A stretch of DNA of 64,000 nucleotides from Sitta carolinensis (taxonomy: Eukaryota; Chordata; Aves; Passeriformes; Sittidae). The stretch lies in the NCBI GenBank assembly GCA_032173965.1, contig CM063298.1, positions 9,423,501 to 9,487,500 on the forward strand, in the 5' to 3' direction. Below are positions 7,590 to 64,000 of this stretch, piece by piece. Numbering within the stretch: the stretch's first letter is position 1; each line of letters starts with the position of its first letter. The notes beneath the pieces were generated by a model. It ran no database searches and had not been told where the DNA came from. It worked only from the letters and a program-made list of their open reading frames with translations. The translations under genes and the position numbers were made by a program.

Positions 7590-9110
7590 CAGTGCGGGCA
7601 CCCGGGGCTGCAGCCCGGGGACAGGCTGCGGGCCACTGCGGGCACCCAGGGACAGGGTGCGGGCCACTGCGGGCACCCAGGGACAGGCTGCGGGCCACTG
7701 CGGGCACCCAGGGACAGGGTGCGGGCCACTGCGGGCACCCAGGGACAGGCTGCGGGTCACTGCGGGCACCCAGGGACAGGCTGCGGGTCACAGCGGGTCA
7801 CTGCGGGCACCCAGGGACAGGCTGCGGGCCACTGCGGGCACCCAGGGACAGGGTGCGGGTCACAGCGGGTCACTGCGGGCACCCAGGGACAGGCTGCGGG
7901 CCACTGCGGGCACCCAGGGACAGGCTGCGGGTCACTGCGGGCACCCAGGGACAGGGTGCGGGTCACAGCGGGTCACTGCGGGCACCCAGGGACAGGCTGC
8001 GGGCCACTGCGGGCACCCAGGGACAGGCTGCGGGCCACTGCGGGCACCCAGGGACAGGCTGCGGGTCACAGCGGGTCACTGCGGGCACCCAGGGACAGGG
8101 TGCGGGCCACTGTGGGCACCCAGGGACAGGCTGCGGGTCACTGCGGGCACCCAGGAACAGGGTGCGGGTCACAGCGGTCACTGCGGGCACCCAGGGACAG
8201 GCTGCGGGCCACTGCGGGCACCCAGGGACAGGCTGCGGGCCACTGCGGGCACCCAGGGACAGGCTGCGGGTCACTGCGGGCACCCAGGGACAGGGTGCGG
8301 GTCACTGCGGGCACCCAGGGACAGGCTGCGGGTCACTGCGGGCACCCAGGAACAGGGTGCGGGTCACTGCGGGCACCCAGGAACAGGGTGCGGGTCACAG
8401 CGGGTCACTGCGGGCACCCAGGGACAGGGTGCAGGCCACTGCGGGCACCCAGGGACAGGGTGCGGGTCACAGCGGGTCACTGCGGGCACCCAGGGACAGG
8501 CTGCGGGCCACTGCGGGCACCCAGGGACAGGCTGCGGGCCACTGCAGGTCACTGCGGGCACCCAGGGACAGGGTGCGGGTCACAGCGGGTCACTGCGGGC
8601 ACCCAGGGACAGGCTGCGGGCCACTGCGGGCACCCAGGGACAGGCTGCGGGTCACTGCGGGCACCCAGGGACAGGGTGCGGGTCACAGCGGGTCACTGCG
8701 GGCACCCAGGGACAGGGTGCGGGCCACTGCGGGCACCCAGGGACAGGCTGCGGGTCACAGCGGGTCACTGCGGGCACCCAGGGACAGGGTGCGGGCCACT
8801 GCGGGCACCCAGGGACAGGCTGCGGGTCACAGCGGGTCACTGCGGGCACCCAGGGACAGGGTGCGGGCCACTGCGGGCACCCAGGGACAGGGTGCGGGTC
8901 ACAGCGGGTCACTGCGGGCACCCAGGGACAGGCTGCGGGCCACTGCGGGCACCCAGGGACAGGCTGCGGGCCACTGCAGGTCACTGCGGGCACCCAGGGA
9001 CAGGCTGCGGGCCACTGCGGGCACCCGGGGCTGCAGCCCGGGGACAGGCTGCGGGTCACTGCGGCTCACTGCCGGTCACTGCGGGCACCCCCAGGGACGG
9101 GCTGCGGGTC
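7590..9110 (+). repeat. G-rich minisatellite, 31 bp unit with 41 bp variant
   Basis: About 45 tandem units contain the shared core GGGCACCCAGGGACAGG. The basic period is 31 bp. A longer 41 bp variant carries a 10 bp GGGTCACAGC insertion. Units also differ at two diagnostic positions: CAGGG versus CAGGC, and GGGCCAC versus GGGTCAC. A few units carry single changes, such as GGAACAG near 8153, 8349 and 8380. An aberrant unit with a CCCGGGGCTGCAGCCCGGGG block occurs near both ends (7601-7620 and 9024-9043). The period is not a multiple of three and contains no stop codon, so long open frames appear in every forward frame; I treat these as artefacts. The array ends roughly 530 bp upstream of the METRNL start codon. 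Confidence 0.97.
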
Positions 9111-13240: not shown

Positions 13241-15387
13241 CCCTCTGGCAGAAAGTCACTGCCTCTGTTGTTGGGATCACTTGCAACAGAAGTTTCACTG
13301 CATGAGTTCAGAGTTTTGCCCCTGGTGTCTTGCTTCTGTTTAAGGACTGCAATGTGCCAGTATAAGTCCTGCAAAACCTCTGCAGCTTGTTTTGATGTCT
13401 TGAGTAGGGACAAGTGATGTGATTTCTGCCCCTTTGCTGAGGGATAACCTTTACACTGTTTAATTTGGTTTGTTTGCAGCTTGCATATAAACAGACTTCT
13501 GTGTTTTCTGTTGAGTGGCATCATGTGTGCGCTGTGGTGAAAACTGATTTTGTGGACCAGATGTGGATTTACAGTCAGCTTGAAATATCCCTTTGCAAGT
13601 AGAGTTTCCTGAATGTGTTAAGTACTACTGAATTTGAGGGCAAGAGACTAAAGGTTAAAAGCTTGTCCCTCTTTCCTCCTCATCCGTGTTCTTGATGTGG
13701 CTTTCAGGATTCTTCAAAAGCACATGTTTGGAGGCTCTGTTGTTATTAAATATGACTTTTTTCTTTCTGAGCTTCCTCATGTAACCTCTATCAAGTGGGT
13801 CACACCGACACTCACAATAATGAGTCACGTCAACAGTAAATGCAAACCATATGGTTTGGGTTTTTTCCCTTTTACACATTGCTTGTAGTTACTTTCTAAG
13901 TGCTGACTTGAATTTAGACCCTGTTCAGTACCCGAATATGTCTTTGGGATGGGGAACTGTGTATTTGGAGGTTTCTGCTGAGGTACCAGGACTCGATGTC
14001 ATCACTTGCACTACACTAAAATAGGGTTTTGCCACTGATTTCCTGTGTAACCTCAGATTTAATCTTTTAAAATTACTTTTTCCCCTATCTTAATTCATCT
14101 GCCTACAAGTGGGAATGTTGTGAAGCTTCCCTAAAGCATCCTGCAAAGCAGACCCACGAGGTGATGAAGGGTAGTCCTCTACAGGCACAGGATAAAAGAT
14201 GCTTGTGCTTGGGAACAAGGTTTTCAGAGCACAGGAGGAGAAATAAGCTTGGTTGTGATTTGCTCATGCTGGCTTAACAGATTTGTGACAGCACAGAGAT
14301 TGGGAGCAAAGGAATTTTCCCTAATAGCCCAAATACTGCAGCCAATAAATAAAGCTTCCCACAGCTTGTTCTTCCAGCTGCACTGTTCTGCTAGGGCTTT
14401 GAGTCACTCTGGGTGAAGAGCTGGTGGGTTTGATCCAGCACCAGTGACAGGCAGCAGGGGTTGTTTGGAGCTGCCCTCAGCTTAGGCTGTGGGCAAACAA
14501 GCCATGGGATTTACTGCTCATTCTGCTTAGCAGCTGGCCCTGGGACCCTGTGCTGCTCTCCATCCCATCCCCGTGGTCTCTGTGGAAAGGTTGTTGGGGT
14601 GTTCATTTTTGGCCAGAGTTAAAGGGCCACATGTTCTCTTTCTTGCTAAGCACAGCTCTGTGTCTGCTCGTAGCCCATCAGTGAAAATGGTAAACTGAGC
14701 TTAAACCTCGTATTGGGCAGCACTGGAGGAACAAGTGCCTACCAAAAAAAGCAGCTCAGTTCAGTGTTTCCCCGGCTATGACAAGGGAGTGAGGTCTCTC
14801 CTCACCTCTCTCCTCCTCTCTCTGCCTCCCAGTGTGGAGATTGGGGCTGCCCCGCTGGGCTGGAGGGTATCGGGAGCACGTAGAGCATTGCTTTGCTGCA
14901 GTTTACAGGGTGAGCTTGGCATCCCTCCCAGTTTCAGATCCATTGGGAATATAGACTTGGAAGGGGAACAAAGTACTTGGAAAAAGGTGGAGTTTGATCT
15001 GTGAAGCTGGAGAACATGCTGGATTGAGCCACCAGGAAGGGAGTTTGAGCATACGTGTTTCACTCAGTATGCACAGCTCAGCTGATGGGCAGTTACTGAG
15101 CCTGTAGTAATTTAATTGCTTTTGATCATCTGCTTATATCCCATTTAATTTTGAAGCCTGTTACAGGTGGTTTGACATTTTCTTCTGGGGGATGATTTAA
15201 AATTGTCCCATAATATTAAGGCTGAAGTGTTGCAAGAGACCTGCTCTGCTGAGCTGGATGGGCCAACACCCCGTGATGTCCTGGGCTTCCTGCATTTCTT
15301 GCCGTGTGTTTTGGGAGGTTTGAGGACTGACATTCATATTATTAGCTCTGTCATTTCTCTAACCTTCTCTTTTCTTTCTTCCTCCAG
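9754..15387 (+). other. METRNL: METRNL intron 1
   Basis: This 5.6 kb phase-2 intron runs from GTGAGG to a pyrimidine-rich TTTCTTCCTCCAG acceptor. Its 5' part is CpG island. The remainder is AT-rich unique sequence with a poly-T run near 10783-10798, a 43-base poly-T tract at 13198-13240 and no coding exon that I can recognise. A GC-rich first intron of this kind often holds regulatory sequence, but no specific element is evident. Confidence 0.9.
13198..13240. repeat. Poly-T homopolymer, 43 bases
   Basis: An uninterrupted run of T in METRNL intron 1. It could be the A-tail of a decayed minus-strand retroposed sequence or a plain slippage tract; no retroposon body is recognisable next to it. 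Length in an assembly is often unreliable for such tracts. Confidence 0.9.
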
Positions 15388-15776
15388 TGGCTTAACCCAC
15401 GAGTCTCACAGGAAGGATGTTGAGCAGGTCTACCTCCGCTGTTCTGAAGGGTCCATAGAGTGGATGTACCCCACGGGAGCACTCATAGTCAACCTGCGAC
15501 CCAATATTTCACCTGCCTCTTACAAACACTTGACTGTTTGCATAAAGCCCTTCAAAGACTCTGCAGGAGCAAATATTTATTTGGAAAAAACTGGAGAACT
15601 GAAACTCTTGGTCCGAGATGGAGACCGCAGCCCCAGCAGAGTGTATTGCTTTGGCTACGACCAGGGGGGGCTCTTTGTGGAGGCCACTCCTCAGCAGGAC
15701 ATTAGCAGGAAGATCACAGGCTTCCAGTACGAATTGATGAGCAGGGGGATAGCAGCTGACTTGCACACAGCTTCTG
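15388..15776 (+). CDS. METRNL: METRNL coding exon 2 (main conserved domain)
   Basis: This 389 bp exon encodes the end of codon 38 through the first base of codon 168. It contains the most conserved part of meteorin-family proteins, including the segments EWMYPTGALIVNLRPN, ANIYLEKTGEL and GGLFVEATPQQD, which I recognise from vertebrate METRNL. Cysteines fall at residues 56, 89 and 125. An N-glycosylation sequon NIS is at residues 77-79. The acceptor ends TTCCTCCAG at 15387 and the donor is G|GTGAGT at 15776/15777. The joined frame is continuous with exons 1 and 3. The length and content match the corresponding exon in other vertebrates as far as I can judge without alignment. Confidence 0.97.
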
Positions 15777-32359: not shown

Positions 32360-33491
32360 GTGAGTTGCTGTCTCCCCAGTCCCTCCTCCTCCCAGAAACC
32401 CCAACAGACCTGGCAAGAAAAAAAAAAAAAAAAAAACAGCAGGAAATGTGGTCTGAGGGTGCTGGGCACAGGGAGAGTTCTGAGGACCTCTGAACAGAAT
32501 CCCAGAATGCCCAGGTTGGAATCTCAGAATGCCCAGGTTGGAATCTCAGAATGCCCAGGTTGGCAGAGCCCTCCAGGACCATCGAGTGCAGCCCAGCCCC
32601 AGCCCCTCACCCAGCCCCTGGCACCCAGAGCCACAGCCAGGCTGGTTTAAACACACCCAGGGATGGGGAATCCACCACCTCCCCAGGCAGAACATTCCAG
32701 CACTGTATCACTCTGTCCATAAATCCTTTTCCCTGCTCTCAGCCTGTGTTTCCCTGGTGCAGCCCGAGGCTCAGCCCCCTGGCTGTGTCAGTGCTGCTGC
32801 ATTCAGAGCCCACCCCCCTGGGCACAGCCCCCTCTCAGGAGCTGCAGGGAGTGAGGAGGGCACCCCAGAGTCTGCTCTGCTCCAGCTGAGCACCCCCAGC
32901 TCCCCCAGGGGTCCCTCTCAGGGTTTGTGTCCCAGCCCCTCTCCAGCCTTGTTCCCACCTCTGGGACTCTCTGCACCTCCCCAGGGTGGGCAGAGTGACA
33001 CAGCAACCACCACAGAAGATCAAGGATTTGGGTGCATCTAGGAGAGGCCATTACTTGTTGCCCTACAGTGTTGGTCGACTTGACAAAAGACCAAAAGTTT
33101 CACTAATTGTCCATGCTTCCCTTTTTAAAAGGGAAATTAGCATTAGCTGTATCTGTAATGGGTGAAGAACAGAAAGTACATTGTCAGGGAGAATTTAGCA
33201 CATATCTTCTTGTTAGAATTCTTCATGATCAATGCTATTTTTCTGCTGTAATTATTTTTCTGTTTGAATTTAATATGTGCCCTTTGCTGGACAGAATACA
33301 AATATAAACAATAAAAATGCAAATAGATACTGGAGGTTACTGGATAGCCTTAACTCTCAGAATAACAAAGGAGAAAGACTTGAGCTGCTGTAGTGAAGTC
33401 AGTCCCCCTGGTTGCCCAGGCCTGAGTTTGGACCAGGGTCTTCCAAAGCATTTTTGAGTGATTAATCCTTCCAACCTTTTCCTGTTTCCAG
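32360..33491 (+). other. METRNL: METRNL intron 3
   Basis: This 1.1 kb phase-1 intron runs from GTGAGT to a TTTTCCTGTTTCCAG acceptor. Almost half of it is a minus-strand CR1 copy. The rest is a short A-rich tract near 32409-32427 and AT-rich unique sequence. Confidence 0.93.
32495..32985 (-). mobile_element. CR1 LINE fragment in METRNL intron 3
   Basis: This is the reverse complement of a CR1 3' region: near the left end, CCTCCAGGACCATCGAGTGCAG, then the body with CACCCCCAGCTCCCCCAGG further right. The terminal block is expanded; the 24 bp segment around CAGAATGCCCAGGTTGGAAT is present three times in tandem near 32500-32565. A closely similar copy, inverted, is at 51590-51905, so the two belong to the same CR1 subfamily. 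Confidence 0.9.
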
Positions 33492-37389: not shown

Positions 37390-37895
37390 AAGGCTGGGGT
37401 TGGGAGTGATCACCCTGGCAGGAGGCAGGAGGAAGGCTGGGGTTGGGAGTGATCACCCTGGCAGGAGGCAGGGGAAAGGCTGGGGTTGGGAGTGATCACC
37501 CTGGCAGGAGGCAGAGAAGGCTGGGGTTGGGAGTGATCACCCTGGCAGCAGGCAGAGGAAGGCTGGGGTTGGGAGTGATCACCCTGGCAGCAGGCAGGGA
37601 AAGGCTGGGGTTGGGAGTGATCACCCTGGCAGAGGCAGGAGAAGGCTGGGGTTGGGAGTGATCACCCTGGCAGAGGCAGGAGGAAGGCTGGGGTTGGGAG
37701 TGCTCACCCTGGCAGGAGGCAGGAGAAGGCTGGGGTTGGGAGTGATCACCCTGGCAGCAGGCAGGAGAAAGGCTGGGGTTGGGAGTGATCACCCTGGCAG
37801 CAGGCAGGAGAAAGGCTGGGGTTGGGAGTGCTCACCCTGGCAGCAGGCAGGGGAAAGGCTGGGGTTGGGAGTGATCACCCTGGCAGCAGGCAGGA
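37390..37895 (+). repeat. Minisatellite, about 43 bp unit, 12 copies
   Basis: Twelve tandem units contain GGCTGGGGTTGGGAGTGATC followed by ACCCTGGCAG and a purine-rich GCAGGAGAA-type linker of variable length. Two units carry TGCTCACC in place of TGATCACC (near 37700 and 37829). The apparent open frames in it are repeat artefacts. Confidence 0.95.
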
Positions 37896-40055
37896 GACGT
37901 GATCTGGCTCTTGCATCCAGCTCCTGGGAGCACCCAGGAGTGTTCCTGCCCCGGGAGGACATGGTGCAATGCAGCAGGTGTTTCCTGCAAACCTGGCCTT
38001 TGAAATGTGATAGGGCTTGTCTGAGCTCCAAGCCTGACCAGCTGATGTGGTGCAACACCTCCGAGGCAGGCTGGAGCTCTCCTGCTCATCCCACTCTTCA
38101 TTAGGTGATGCAGCTCTGGAACTGGGAAAGTCTCTGAGTGATACGTGTCAGAGAGGCTGGTTGAGTGGTAAATAAGGTTAGCAATATTGGGACCAGCTGT
38201 TCTGGGAGAGAGCAAATTGAAAACCAAATTGGTTGAGAAGTAAACCAGAAAAACATGAGGAGGGAGCTATGTGTGAGTCTCTGAGAGTGGTGAGAAGTAG
38301 CACAGAGCCAAAACAAAGAAATGTCTTGACAGCAGCAAGATTCAGGCCTGGAGGAGTGGGGCTGCTGGAGAGGGAGAAGAATCAAGTTTCTCCTTTCCAG
38401 CTTGACAGAAGTGATTCCCCTTTCTGCTGCAGGGCAGCCCCCTTCAGCTGGCTCTGACCCTCCTTTCAGTGAGGGCCAGCTGGCCTGACTCTGGGCTGGT
38501 CAATACCGAAGGAGCCTTTTCCAGATAATCCTTTTTCCATCAGTCCTGACCTCAGAGCCTCACTAAGAGACATTGAGGGGACCCAATGAATAACTGTGAG
38601 CACTCACTTCCTCCTCCCTCACCAAAAACGAGATGCCTGGTGACAGTGAAAAAAACCCAGCCCTTTGAAATTCATTTTGGAGTGTCACACCCACCTATCT
38701 CAACATCACCCAAATGCCTTGGTTTTGCCCCAGTCAGCATTTGGCTCTAGCCAAGGCTGAACAGGAAAAAATAGATTTCTGCCTTGTGTCCTTCCTCAGT
38801 GGCTCTCCTGGACTTTGTGCTGGAGCTGAGCAAAGCTGAGGGGCAGACTGGGAACACACCAGCCATCAGCACCCACTGCACCAGTACAGGAGCTGCTGTG
38901 GCCAGCACCTGGCTGCTCACTCACATGGGGCTGGGAGAATCCAGGGAGACCCTCAGCTAGAGCTCTGAGAGTGTTAGAGAAGGGGAAGACAAAAGAAAGG
39001 GCAATTGTCAGTGGTCATTTCTATCTCACCTTGTTTAAAGGAATTTGCCTCATCTTTTTTCCTTTCCCTCTGTCCAGCAAAGAAGGTGCAGAGCTTCCAA
39101 ACACAGGGAGGAAGCTGTGGCAGGCTGGGGGATCTGCAGAGCCTTAGCTGGCCCAGCTCAGAGGGTTCTGGAGGGGCACACAGCCCAGCCCTGGGATGCT
39201 GAGTACCCTGAGCCACAGTAAGGAGGGCACCAGCAGTGACTGCTGCTGCTGCTGGGGCTTCAGCTGGGGCAAGGAGGCAAGTGGGGGCCCCTGCTGAAGG
39301 GTGCTGAGCTGAACTGCTGCAGGACAAGGGTGCTCTGTAGCCCATCCCACAGCTCTCCTCGTAGCCTTGCTTGGGTTGTGTTCTGTGAGGTTTTCCAGAA
39401 GGGTTTGGGTGACCCCGTGGTCCTTGCAGGGAGTGAACTGGCCCTGAGCTGTAGCTGCTCCTGTGTTTGAGGTGTCCAGCTGCAAAGCCTGGCTGGTGTG
39501 CTCTGTGTGTGCAGCTGGGCAGGGCTGCCAGGGCTTGGAGGGGGCTGCCAGCAGTGGGGAGAGGGAGGAGGAGAGGAGGGGAGGAGTGTCCACTTGTGCT
39601 GGAAGCAGAGCTGACTCAGGGCTTTCTCCCCTGGGCTGGGTGCTGACTCAGCTGCTTGGCCTTTTCCTGGCTCCTCTGAAACCCAGAGGCATCTCCCGGG
39701 GCTCAGAGGCCACAGCAGAGCAGCAGGAGTCAGCACGGCTTGGTTTTGGGAGAGTCACGCCTCGACTCTCTTGGGGCAAGAGCCAAGAAGTTCAGTAAGA
39801 GCTGCAGGGTTGCTTCTGGGTGTGTTTTGTACTCCTGCTGGGGAGCACGTGCTGCTCAGCCTGGGCTGGTTCCTGGGGTGGATGTGTGCTTCTGCTGCTG
39901 GGTCCCCCACTGCAGGGCTGGGTTGGGGCAGGGGCTTTTCCTTTGGCCTCCCTGGAGTGTTATTCCATGGCATTACTCATGCCTGTGTCAGAACACACTC
40001 CCTGCTCTGCTGCAGGGTGAGGCTGAGCTTCTGGGGTGGAAAACACACCATGGAG
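37896..40055. other. Intergenic, no gene seen
   Basis: GC-moderate sequence with several unsupported open frames on both strands. I see no conserved protein motif and no clear retroelement. The boundary of the hepadnaviral homology to its right is uncertain by a few tens of bases. Confidence 0.55.
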
Positions 40056-40476
40056 GTTGTGCCAGCAATTTATCACCCTATCAAGTGATGCTTCCTTAAC
40101 CTGAGTATAAACTCTCCAATGTGTCCAAATTCTTGCTAATATAGGATCATCAAGTTTCCATGGAATAATTCTCTCCTCTTGGGATTGAAACAGATCATGC
40201 AAACCTATTTGTTGTGTTTCTTCCACAACTAAATGGCACTTGGGAACTTGTGGTGTATCCTCAGGGATGTGTGGTTTTAGAGCATCAGCTACAGGACACA
40301 TGAGTAGTCTGTCAGAAATCTTCCAATAATTCAATTAAATGATCAGCAAGAATAACATGCTTCTTTATTTTTGAGTCATCCCTGGACAAATAAGGCTCAA
40401 TAGCTTGTTTAGCATCTCTTAATAAGTCATCAATGGTAGGAAAGAAATCATTTGGCGAATAAAAAATATTTGACAG
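40056..40476 (-). pseudogene. Endogenous hepadnavirus core (capsid) gene fragment, 5' and middle part
   Basis: Read on the minus strand, this segment resembles the capsid assembly domain of avian hepadnaviruses. The diagnostic pieces in order are NDFFP (40438-40452), a run of acidic and Lys/His-rich helix residues, an EDF segment before 40315, EERI (40167-40178) and SLDR (40077-40088). The relic is broken in two ways: an in-frame TGA at 40312-40314, where a Trp would be expected, and a net +1 (or -2) frameshift between about 40303 and 40289, after which the homology continues in another frame to about 40056. The C-terminal arginine-rich domain and the polymerase and surface genes are absent. 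It directly abuts the LTR at 40477. It is non-functional. The identification is by recognition of the family pattern, not by a search. Confidence 0.88.
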
Positions 40477-40867
40477 TGTAGTCTGGGTCTTTCAGGCCTG
40501 CAGCTTCAGAGTTTCTGAAGTTGATGTCACTGTGGAGAATAACACACGACACAAATTTCTCCAAAACAGCTTGGAGAGATGATCTGACTCTGTTTATTAC
40601 AAACAATGGCTCCCCTTTTATAGATTTTGGACAGACCACTGTGATTGGTGAACGAGCCACAGAACTCTTCACCCACACTGGACAAACCAGAGGGACATCA
40701 AAAGACAGTCTGTCCCACAGAAAGAATTCCAAACAGGAGTTTTGTTACACAAACAATCATGATGTTTATGTTCAATCTGTGGGAACAAGCTTCAGAAACC
40801 CAAAACATCAGGAAAAACCAGAGCTTTAGAAACTCAGAAGCTGCAGACTTGAAAGACCCAGACTACA
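40477..40867 (-). mobile_element. Solo LTR of an endogenous retrovirus, inserted in the hepadnavirus relic
   Basis: On the minus strand it starts TGTAGTCTGGG and ends CCAGACTACA, the TG...CA ends of a retroviral LTR. It has a CCAAT box (40644-40648), a TATAAAA box (40616-40622) and an AATAAA signal (40593-40598) in the right order and spacing for U3-R-U5. It is flanked by a 6 bp duplication with one mismatch (CTGTCC at 40868-40873, CTGTCA at 40471-40476, minus-strand sense). The outer 44 bases at each end form an imperfect inverted repeat with 40 of 44 matches, longer than is usual for LTR ends. No internal retroviral sequence is adjacent, so it is a solo LTR left by recombination. An ERVL- or ERVK-like family is possible. 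Confidence 0.9.
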
Positions 40868-40935
40868 GGACAGAGCACGAGGTGCATTGGCATCCACCTC
40901 TAGAGATAGATCATAAACAGAGGTGCACACCAAGG
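40868..40935 (-). pseudogene. Endogenous hepadnavirus precore end and core start fragment
   Basis: On the minus strand, upstream of the LTR, the segment LVCTSVYD (40910-40933) followed by DANAPRAL matches the avian hepadnaviral precore-core junction pattern. The codon in the position of the core initiator Met is GTG (40895-40897), so the core start is lost. The reading frame runs up to the target duplication, and if the LTR and one duplication copy are ignored it is in register with the downstream core segment. The frame also continues open to about 41230, but I recognise nothing viral beyond about 40940. Confidence 0.82.
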
Positions 40936-43900
40936 TACAGCAGCCAGCAAGGACAGCAGGGGCTGGGCTCTGCCCCCTGCAGCCCTGGGCACTCCGAAGT
41001 GCTGAGCTGGGGTGAGAGGAGCATCCTGTGCAAGCAATGAGGACTGACCTCAGCCTGGAGCCTGCGGTGGTGGGACCCTGCTGCAGCCAAAGGGATGCTG
41101 AGCCCAGCAGCTGTGCTGCCAATTCCTCGCTGTCCTGAGAGGGGGGTGGCTCTTTGCTGGTGCTTCCAGCAGCCCAGGAGGCTCCTCTCCCTCTGGGAAA
41201 GTGGGGCCTCGAGGCTGAACCCTGTGACAAACACGTTTATCCCACTTGAAATGAGCAGAGGCAGAAGGGCTTTGGGCCAGGCTGGAAGCAGAGCCCTGCT
41301 GCCACAAACAGAGGGGAGGGCACTGCTGACTGCATGGAAACCTGATGAAATTCCTTGCAGAAATGGCAGAGGTGCTGGAGGTGGATGAGGCATAAGGGTG
41401 TCACTGTGGGGCTGGGACATGTGCCCAGCCAAGCACTGGGGTGGCTGTGGAGGGGTTGCCCCATCACCAACCGGTTCCTCTGGTTCCTTGGGCTCTGGAG
41501 GATTCCTGTGCCAGATTGACCTGGAGTCAGACTGGTTTGTGCAGAGCCTGTATTTGCCTGGAGAGGAAAAAATAATAATAGTAATAATAATAATTAAAAA
41601 AACTCAGTTCAGTCACCTCAGCCCAGAGTTGTGTTTTTAAAGGGAGTGGTGTGGGGAAGGTCTTGGGCACCCCCAACTCTGATCTGGTGCTGTGCCTGCC
41701 CCAGGGCTGAACGGCTCCGTGGCTTTCAGGGAGGACAAATGGAACACAAACAAGCACATCTCTCATTGTGATGTGGATGGTGGCTGCTCTTGGCTGGACA
41801 GAGTGCTGGTAACACAGCTTGCCTGTGCATCGCTGGCTGAAGGGAGGAGGAAATTCAGGCATGGACCCATCTCAGGAGCAGATTTATCAGCATGGACACA
41901 AAATCAAAATCATTGAGTGGCTGCAGCTTAAGCCCTGTGTTAGTTGTCTGGGGCAGCTGAGCCAAACTTGCCTTGCCCTTGGGCTTTTTCCTTCTCACTG
42001 TGCAGTGTTACCACCCTTCCTTGGGTTGTTCTTAATCTGCTTATTCCAGAGAAATACTATCTGCCTGTTATTGTGCCCCAAATGTAGAAAGGCTTTCTGC
42101 CTTTCCCAGGGTGGAAAAAAAAGTGTTTTCAGAATCCCCCACAAATGTTGCTGCTCTGTAACAGTTTTCTTCAGTCCCACAGAGGATGTTTTAATCTGAA
42201 TTTTCCTCAGTACTTCAGGGTGTCACAGGAGCATCCCAGCCTGAATGCTGGTGGGCACTGGTGAGTTGGGGATGAATGGTGGGTTTTGGGCAGGGAAGGT
42301 GGAGCTGATTTCAGCCAGTGGGTGCCAGGCTCTGTGGAGATATGCCCCTGTCTGGGTTTGTCTATTCAAGTGCCTTTACTGACCTGTGGCTGCAAATGCC
42401 TCCTTATGCCATGGCTGTAAACACTGAAGGACTGGCTCCTGAGGCTCAGAGGATCTAGTAAATCTATTGATCATGCTTAAAAAAAATCTTTAGAAGTAGC
42501 CAAATTTTAGCCAAACCTCAGCCTTTATTTCCCTTAGATTTCCCCTGTTTCTGAAGCCCTTCAGAAGGGATGGGCTCAGCCCCAGGCCAGCCCACCTTTG
42601 CAGGGTTGTTTTTGCTCCCTGCCTTATCTCCCTTGTGACACCACGTGCCCTTTCCTTCCTCCTTCATGCTCCAGGGCTCTGCCAGGGCAGGAATGGGTGA
42701 TGATGTTAAGCAAGCCCTGTGTGAGCAGCCTGGCTATGGGGAACTGCTGCAGAGGCAGCAGAAGTGAAGCTGGCTGGAAAAACCCCTCCGTGTTTGTTGT
42801 TCAGCTTCCAAACCCCACGTAGTCATGGCTTAGCATTCAAAATTAAATTATCATTTCCTTCAAAGCCAAAGGCACCAGAATGTCTGACACTTGGGTGTGT
42901 CAAGGGGCAAATTTTATCTGCTGTGGCACAGAGATGGTCAGTGACTGCCACAAGGTGCAGAGCTGATGGGTGCCTCTGGTTGGGGCAGCACCCAGTGTTG
43001 GCTCTTTTCCTTCTTTCCACATCTCCAGGCTGGGCTCACTCTGCTGTGGGTGTGAACCCTGGGCTGCTGAGTCCTGCCTGGGCTCCCTGTCCTGCTCACA
43101 CAAGGCTTTTTTGGGACTCCCTTTGGCAGCGTGTCCCTTCTGGGCAGGCTGGGCTGGGCTGGGCTATGAGTGAGCAAAACTCAGGCATTTCATTTTTGCT
43201 TGTCAGGCTCCCTTGGGACAGGTAACCTGGTTCCAAAGCACTGAGAGGGGGTTCAGAGGGTCTGTGCTGTGCAGCCCTTGGCCTCCCCACTGTGGACACA
43301 CTTCATGGTGGGGTGAGCACATCCTTGTCCCTGTGGAGGCTGAGGCTGCTCTTAATGTGCCCTGGCTGGATCCTTCTGGGTGTGCTGGAGAGCTCTGCTG
43401 GTTTCCATGTGCTATGGAGGGAAAAAAAAGTCAGAAAAATCCAGGCTCTTTGATTCTCACTCAGAAATAAGCAACAGCACAAGCAGAGCATGGAAGACAG
43501 GGACACACCACTGGCCCCAGGGAAATGCTCTCTGCACCCAGCCCAGCTTCTTGCTTCTCTTGGGGGCACTAAGGATGAGCACAGGGGCGCTGAGGGCCCC
43601 TGCTCTGGCTCTCTTTTGACACTGGAGATCCAAGCAGATGGTCTGTCCATACAATGTGCTGATGTTTTTAGCTGTGAATGATGACTTAAGGTTTTAGCCT
43701 TTATGTTTTTCAAATCCCGTACTTCATTAGTGCATAACTCTCTATAAAGTGTTAGCTACTGCCTTCACATTTTGGTCAGGCAAAACAATTCCTCTGGGCC
43801 TGGAGCTCAAGGGCACCCTACAGCCTCAAGCCCTGAAAAGTATAAACAAAATAAATTGGGGAGAAGCAAACTGGGGGAGTATGACTTCATTACCTGAAGC

Positions 43901-45195: not shown

Positions 45196-45660
45196 ACAGG
45201 AGCTGCTTGTGGTGACAGGTCTCACACTGTGTCCTTGAGCTGCTTGTGGTGGCAGGTCCCACACTGTGTCCTTGAGCTGGTGGCAGGTCCCACACTGTGT
45301 CCTTGAGCTGCTTGTGGTGGCAGGTCTCACACTGCTGTCCTTGAGCTGGTGGCAGGTCCCACACTGCTGTCCTTGAGCTGCTTGTGGTGGCAGGTCCACA
45401 CTGCTGTCCTTGAGCTGGTGGCAGGTCCCACACTGCTGTCCTTGAGCTGCTTGTGGTGACAGGTCTCACACTGGTGTCCTTGAGCTGGTGGCAGGTCCCA
45501 CACTGCTGTCCTTGAGCTGCTTGTGGTGACAGGTCTCACACTGGTGTCCTTGAGCTGGTGGCAGGTCCCACACTGGTGTCCTCAAGCTATTAATGGTGGC
45601 AGGTCCTGCTCTGGTGGCCTTGAGCTCATTGTGGTGGCAGGTCCTGCCCTGGTGTCCTCA
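45196..45660. repeat. Minisatellite, alternating about 31 and 37 bp units
   Basis: About a dozen units contain GGCAGGTCCCACACTG and TCCTTGAGCTG. They alternate between a short form (GAGCTGGTGGCAGG) and a long form (GAGCTGCTTGTGGTGGCAGG). The right end decays into diverged units near 45600-45660. Apparent open frames on the minus strand are repeat artefacts. Confidence 0.93.
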
Positions 45661-51584: not shown

Positions 51585-51905
51585 GACTCAGGGGGGTGGG
51601 CTCAGTCTGCAGCAGCACTGACAAAACCAGAGGGCTCAGCCTCAGACTGCACCTGGAGAAATATGGGTTGGATATCAGGAAAAAGTTTTTCATGGAAAGA
51701 ATAATAAAGTGCTGGAATGTTCTGCCTGGGGAGGTGGTGCAGTGCCCATCCCTGGGTGTGTTTAAACCAGCCTGGCTGTGGCTCTGGGTGCCAGGGGCTG
51801 GGTGAGGGGCTGGGGCTGGGCTGGACTCGATGGTCCTGGAGGGCTCTGCCAACCTGGGCATTCTGGGATTCCAACCTGGGGATTCCGTGATTCTTTGATT
51901 CTGGG
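51585..51905 (+). mobile_element. CR1 LINE 3' fragment
   Basis: It shows GGATATCAGGAAAAAGTTTT, TGGGGAGGTGGTGCAGTG, GGACTCGATGGTCCTGGAG and a 3' tail with repeated ATTCTGGGATTCC-like units. It belongs to the same subfamily as the inverted copy in METRNL intron 3. Confidence 0.92.
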
Positions 51906-62340: not shown

Positions 62341-62612
62341 ACAGGGCTGTGCTTGGCTGGAGCCCGGCTCCAGGGGTCCATCCATGGTGGTGCGGTGGCT
62401 GGTGGCTCTGGCTCCAGGTTCATTCCATGGTGTGGGCACAGGGCTGTGCTTGGCTGGAGCTCTGGGGCTCCAGGGGTGCTCATTCCATGGTGTGTGGCAC
62501 AGGGCTGTGCTTGGCTGGAGCTCTGGGGCTCCAGGGGTGCTCATTCCATGGTGTGGGCACAGGGCTGTGCTTGGCTGGAGCTCTGGGGCTCCAGGGGTGC
62601 TCATTCCATGGT
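62341..62612 (+). repeat. Tandem repeat, about 60 bp unit, about four copies
   Basis: Units contain GGGCTGTGCTTGGCTGGAGC, GGGGCTCCAGGGGTGCTC and ATTCCATGGTGTG. The first unit is diverged and the last three are nearly identical. Open frames across it are artefacts of the repeat. Confidence 0.9.
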
Positions 62613-64000
62613 GTGTGCTGCAGCAGGTGCCTTTGGGCTGCCCTGGCTCTGCAGCTGGCTCCAGGGCAGTGCTCTGGGCCAGGGCTCTCCCTCTCTACCA
62701 CCACGAAGGCAGCTCTCAGCCAGCCCTGGCCCCCGTGGCAGCAGACCCTGGTGCACACACGGGTGAGCACATTCTGCACCCCAGAGCAGTGCTGGGAGGG
62801 CTGCAGAGTCCTGTGAGGAGCCAGCTCAGGCTTGAGCTGCTTCTGCAGCAGTGCAGAGCTGCAGCTCCTTGGCAGGGCAAGAGGTGCAAACTGTAACCCC
62901 AGTGACCCCCTGACCGAGGGGGCAGGAGCTGCTCCTCTGCAGCAGGAGACTGGCAGCTGGGAAGAGCTCTTCTCTGCTTTGGGCTCAGTGGCTGAGCCAG
63001 AGGCAGGCTGGGCATTGCTTCGCCTGTGTCTGGAATGGGGGAGATGCCAACAGCCAAAGAAAGTGTCGGTGCCTCTCTTGCAGCTGGGGAGCCTCTGCCT
63101 CAGGATGCTTTGGGAAGGGTGGTGCATCTCACAGGCTCTGGAGTGGGGCTGCTGCAGTGCAGCATGGGTCCCTTCCACTCCAGGTGATTTGAATGGCTCT
63201 GCTTTATGTCCTGAAAGGTATCTCTGGCCGTGGTTTATCCTTACCCTGCCCTAACCCCATCCAGCTTGTCAGGCTGGGAATTTTGCTCTGTGAACATCTC
63301 TCTGCTGGATGTTTGAGAAAGCTGAAATGTCAGATTGACCTTTTGAGGTTTTTCTTTTCTCAAGGAAGAAGGTTTCTATACAATTCATGTCATGAATCAA
63401 TCCAAAGGGTGCATTTTTCTGCACCAGTTAAATAAAAGATCATTAAACTTAACAAATGCTTCCCAGCCTGCCTGCACTTTCACGGAGTGTTCAGCTATAA
63501 ATATGACCTGTGCTTATAACAACATAAACAACATGCTCCTCAAAAGCAGGACAGACTATATACCTCTTCTTTTTATTTTTAAGCTGCTCCAGAAATATAT
63601 ACACACATTCCTAATATGCTTACTTAAGCAGGAAGCAGACGAATAGTTTAAGATAATGTTTCAGCCTATTGTGAGTTATATGTGCCCCAAAGATTGTTTC
63701 CTTTATGTGGTAATTTTTCAAACAAAGAGAGAAAAAGCTGAAAAATCTTGTCAATTCCTTAACTGTAGGCAAGATTTGCAGGAATTTCCACTGCATTTCC
63801 CTCTCAAAGGGATATTTGAGACCACTGATAAGGGGAAAAGGAGATTAAATAGTCCTAATTCTTTTCATGTACTATGGAGACTAATTCCTCTTGCTCTCAC
63901 CACCATGTCCAGAAGACTGGCCAGCTGCTGATTTCCCCTACTTGTGGGCAGATCTGAGGGGTGATACGAATTTCAGGGCCTGGAGAAGGAGGGCATCAGT
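62613..64000. other. Intergenic, no gene seen
   Basis: A GC-rich part (to about 63180) gives way to AT-rich unique sequence. No supported gene, RNA or element up to the window edge. Confidence 0.55.

Follow-up and report, generated by a model that had tools for sequence, protein, structure and literature searches.

The closest described systems are the endogenous hepadnaviruses of the zebra finch and other birds. The fragment table of Gilbert and Feschotte (2010, PMC2946954) lists 15 zebra finch fragments, designated eZHBVa-n, none of which is placed on chromosome 18. The eHBV loci in the main text and Table 1 of Lytras et al. (2021, PMC7955980) are derived from avihepadnaviruses, mostly short and sub-genomic, and several of them are confined to passerines; according to its authors, the screen recovered all elements described before. 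The locus reported here, in the genome of Sitta carolinensis, is of the same kind: as in the tabulated eZHBVa-n fragments (PMC2946954), which are short, mostly broken and located in a passerine genome, and of which eZHBVa includes part of the core gene, it consists of a short and disrupted stretch of viral sequence, and, as in the eHBV loci (PMC7955980), this stretch is sub-genomic and of avihepadnaviral type.

We are confident, close to the point of certainty, that the locus is an endogenous avihepadnavirus fragment on the 3' side of METRNL with an LTR nested in it, for which we propose repair-mediated entry, subsequent decay and the reduction of a class II retrovirus to a solo LTR. The analysed window, that is, the whole stretch of 64,000 nucleotides (G000:C23:9423501-9487500), belongs to a genome of 1.03 Gb; positions without a contig name refer to this window. 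Piece A (40315-40473, minus strand, 53 codons) corresponds to the N-terminal part of the core assembly domain and matches the Pfam family PF00906 (Hepatitis_core) with an E-value of 1e-9 and 38.8 bits over profile positions 17-73 of 273. Piece B (40059-40334, minus strand, 92 codons) corresponds to a later part of the same domain (E = 1.6e-12, 48 bits, profile positions 73-157 of 273). Both scores exceed the curated cut-off of 22.6 bits, and the pieces follow each other on the minus strand in the order of the protein. A six-frame search of the genome with PF00906 separately recovers piece A (E = 1.6e-8) and piece B (E = 3.3e-9). None of 14 control genomes is matched by the same family, which we count as a weak control, since the eight named genomes are all prokaryotes.

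A comparison of piece A with solved structures gives matches to 6ygi (E = 1.4e-14) and 6ygh (E = 1.8e-14), and a much weaker one to an HBV capsid construct (E = 0.0039). Piece B matches 6ygh alone (E = 4.2e-13, query residues 12-88), and the similarity stops near position 40071. The structure 6ygh, whose match carries the label 'Capsid protein', is taken here to be the capsid of the duck virus. The identity to the solved avian capsid is 60% (30/50) for piece A and 45% (34/75) for piece B. By homology above the cut-off, and with the avian-type capsid closer than the mammalian-type one, the two minus-strand pieces are derived from the core gene of an avian-type hepadnavirus. The preliminary description, made from motifs, had placed capsid stretches of this type on the minus strand; the protein matches to hepadnaviral core are significant for both pieces, at the same place, and bear out the core identity as well as the avian type.

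Pieces A and B occupy different frames, and the gene is therefore broken. The lesions seen are this frame change and the insertion of an LTR that separates a further piece, C, from piece A. The two-segment layout proposed earlier was right as to a fragmentary core on the minus strand, and missed both the LTR in the gap and the frame change between A and B.

Piece C (40871-40936, minus strand) probably represents the precore tail followed by the first nine codons of the core. Its 22 residues yield no match that reaches the threshold by itself in Pfam or PDB, and the assignment to the precore end and core start is a probable one, made by frame, position and the motif named in the preliminary description. 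The second residue of piece A aligns with chain residue 11 of 6ygh/6ygi, hence nine residues are due before the serine at the edge of the LTR. Counting from the expected core start, which is without an ATG, piece C supplies nine residues at this place. Its frame runs on into that of piece A across the hexamer that flanks the LTR in duplicate, both copies of which are in the same codon phase. The residues of piece C presumably also resemble the start of avian core proteins, as proposed in the preliminary description. The frame contains no stop and extends, still open, as far upstream as 41236, with 122 codons in total; most of this open frame is probably host DNA that is open by chance. In a search for the hepadnaviral packaging hairpin, the 4227 Rfam families give no match of any kind at the gathering score in the whole window. 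Within 40868-41200, and with E-values up to 10, eight weak matches are obtained, all below the gathering score and none of them hepadnaviral, and the predicted fold of 40891-40960 is no more stable than that of shuffled sequences (z = -0.32).

The interruption between pieces C and A is a solo-LTR-like repeat of 391 bases (40477-40867, minus strand), recognized by its TG...CA ends, its motifs and its genomic family. It is flanked by a near-exact target-site duplication, with TGACAG on the left (40471-40476) and GGACAG on the right (40868-40873), identical in 5 of 6 bases. On the minus strand the element carries the promoter motif TATAAA at element position 246 and the poly-A motif AATAAA at position 270. 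An internal region is absent, and the element is therefore best read as a solo LTR. A genome search, in which 40 of 3183 first-look candidates were scored, gave 76 matches. As many copies are matched twice in this set, and as only the scored candidates contribute, the resulting copy number is a lower bound. The LTR belongs to a large, high-copy family that is present on many contigs. Among 20 fetched copies, including the one described here, seven have an exact six-base duplication beside the TG...CA ends; in a cross-paired control, combining the 5' flank of one copy with the 3' flank of another, this is the case for 3 of 380 pairs. The copy at 40477-40867 is not among the seven exact cases (its hexamers differ at one base). 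A target duplication of six bases is typical for class II (ERVK-like) retroviruses, and the repeat, which lies within the viral core start, is probably a solo LTR of this class.

At the 3' end of this copy, the last 44 bases are an imperfect inverted copy of the first 44 (91% identity). Most scored copies of the family (36 of 40) align no further than position 357. A minority form, with its own first bases in inverted orientation at or after the 3' end, is found in 6 of the 40 scored copies, namely the present one and those at C15:4152626-4153027, C15:2883654-2884041, C29:3788235-3788613, C18:8210057-8210480 and C23:2412215-2412706 of the same genome (G000). The ends of the minority form could fold back on each other.

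As the LTR lies inside the viral sequence, the viral integration is the older of the two events. Between the LTR and the other 19 fetched copies the median K2P distance is 0.121, with 0.079 for the nearest copy, and those copies differ among themselves by 0.125; the sample comprises the best-scoring copies and is biased in this respect. Assuming a single burst, half of 0.121, taken with the two substitution rates given in PMC2946954 (2.0e-9 and 3.9e-9), would date the burst to approximately 30 and 16 million years, respectively. The insertion at this locus could predate or postdate the burst.

The viral fragment is located inside a contig of 12.1 Mb, about 6.2 kb downstream of the METRNL stop and on the opposite strand. 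Exon 2 of METRNL, at about 15383-15739, matches the Meteorin structure 7tl6 (E = 7.4e-19), and a protein search with the exon gives Meteorin-like proteins among the best 120 of 556 matches; the named matches listed include Hirundo (99%), Lamprotornis (98%), Willisornis (98%), Zonotrichia (97%) and Pavo (95%). With passerines at 97-99% among the best named matches, the exon indicates a host that is a passerine or closely related to passerines. A Pfam search of the exon yields no real match and one below the cut-off. From motif stems, we assume further METRNL exons around 32.3 kb and 33.7 kb and a stop codon at roughly 33.8 kb. The position 3' of METRNL, already suggested in the preliminary description, agrees with these structure and protein matches. 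We further assume that METRNL is on chromosome 18 in the zebra finch. The surroundings contain several other repeats. An inverted pair of 305 bases, 89% identical, is formed by 32519-32820, close to a METRNL exon, and 51589-51893. A GC-rich minisatellite (7614-9030, approximately 41 copies of a 31-base unit) precedes METRNL exon 2 by several kb, and additional minisatellites at 37390-37897, 45200-45658 and 62420-62686 have best-fit units of about 43, 70 and 60 bases, respectively.

Searches with the core and polymerase families reveal five other hepadnaviral loci in the genome. A core fragment on C17 (L001, G000:C17:7077657-7077962; PF00906, E = 7.3e-20) contains one in-frame stop, and a locus on contig C14 (L004; PF00906, E = 1.4e-4) corresponds to a later part of the core. 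The N-terminal family of the polymerase is represented at two loci, on C5 (L005 and L007) and C7 (L006), the C-terminal family at one, on C1 (L028). In the window itself neither of the polymerase families PF00242 and PF00336 is found; their loci are those on C5, C7 and C1. Contig C1 also harbors a short COX1-like fragment (L029, G000:C1:92558725-92558967), the sole match in a COX1 search of the genome; it is probably mitochondrial DNA that was copied into the nucleus.

The similarity between the METRNL-side fragment and these other loci raises the question of duplication. The METRNL-side fragment and the C17 fragment cover the same region of the core and share 72% DNA identity over 317 bases, compared to 59% over 157 bases for the METRNL-side and C14 fragments. 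At the protein level, the former pair is closer together (69%, 51/74) than either member is to the solved avian capsid (34/75, or 45%, for the METRNL-side and 34/65 for the C17 fragment). These values would fit a copy of the C17 fragment that never integrated on its own. Such a copy is nevertheless unlikely: the 1.5-kb flanks on each side of the METRNL-side fragment, compared with L001 and L004-L007, give nothing except one 30-base match (E = 0.07) and are thus unlike those of C17, and a divergence of 28% would require very old copying. The two fragments are probably separate integrations of related extinct viruses. We also consider, tentatively and leaning somewhat against it, that both stem from an undescribed group of avihepadnaviruses that infected passerines and entered the germline more than once, with the nested LTR setting a minimum age for one of these entries. 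Scans of viral contigs and word-based protein searches return no relative; this is in part due to the length rule of the searches, which leaves out full-length core proteins for such short queries.

Far less probable than duplication are two readings in which the locus is no decaying relic at all. One is co-option by the host, in which the fragment would serve as a working gene of capsid origin or as a regulatory element, with promoter motifs supplied by the inserted LTR. The absence of in-frame stops from pieces A, B and C together, in 163 codons examined, would be in keeping with this, as would the TATAAA and AATAAA motifs of the LTR. We nonetheless regard co-option as highly improbable, given the break of the frame inside core, the lack of an ATG at the expected start and the interruption of the frame by the LTR. 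Moreover, a stop-free outcome is not a rare event under chance alone: simulations started from the present-day sequence give probabilities of 0.38, 0.14, 0.058 and 0.034 at 5, 10, 15 and 20% neutral change, that is, 14% of simulations at 10% change and 6% at 15%. The lack of stops mildly favours neutral change below about 15-20% and is no evidence of selection. The other reading, a present-day avian hepadnavirus contaminating the assembly, has practically no probability left, and no observation speaks for it. The identity to the solved avian capsid is only 45-60% and is accompanied by the frame break, the nested LTR is from a family found on many contigs, and host DNA flanks the fragment within the 12.1-Mb contig.

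For the endogenous fragment with its nested LTR, we propose the following course of events. DNA of an ancient bird hepadnavirus, comprising the precore end and the core assembly domain, would have been joined to a chromosome of the passerine lineage downstream of METRNL. To our knowledge, hepadnaviruses have no integrase, and the joining therefore most likely took place while a chromosome break was repaired. The fragment would then have decayed as non-coding DNA devoid of function: the core frame is broken, and an ATG is absent from the expected start. A class II (ERVK-like) retrovirus presumably inserted into the core start and was later reduced to a solo LTR, probably through recombination between its two LTRs.

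With respect to published loci, METRNL is not named in the main text or the fragment table of PMC2946954. It is likewise absent from the main text of PMC7955980 and from its Table 1, so that the METRNL-side locus is not among the loci listed there by flanking gene. The main texts of PMC4272516 and PMC4263362 contain no mention of METRNL either, a literature search gave no publication that pairs hepadnaviruses with METRNL, and the titles and abstract openings returned by further searches pointed to no publication on this locus. Absent from these published texts and tables, the METRNL-side locus appears to be an extra site of a well-known type of viral fossil. Should it really be absent from the zebra finch, the integration may be confined to a different lineage of passerines, but the zebra finch screen of PMC2946954 could also have overlooked so short a fragment.

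Each integration site is a datable record of a past virus, and an LTR nested in a viral fragment adds a second event. Because the order of the two events is known, a survey of passerines for the presence or absence of each could set bounds on the time of the infection as well as on that of the subsequent LTR insertion. In the published account of the zebra finch fragments (PMC2946954), eZHBVl*, as well as eZHBVa in the junco, carry a solo LTR accompanied by a six-base target duplication. The hexamers duplicated there are unlike those found here, where the hexamers beside the solo-LTR-like repeat agree in 5 of 6 bases.
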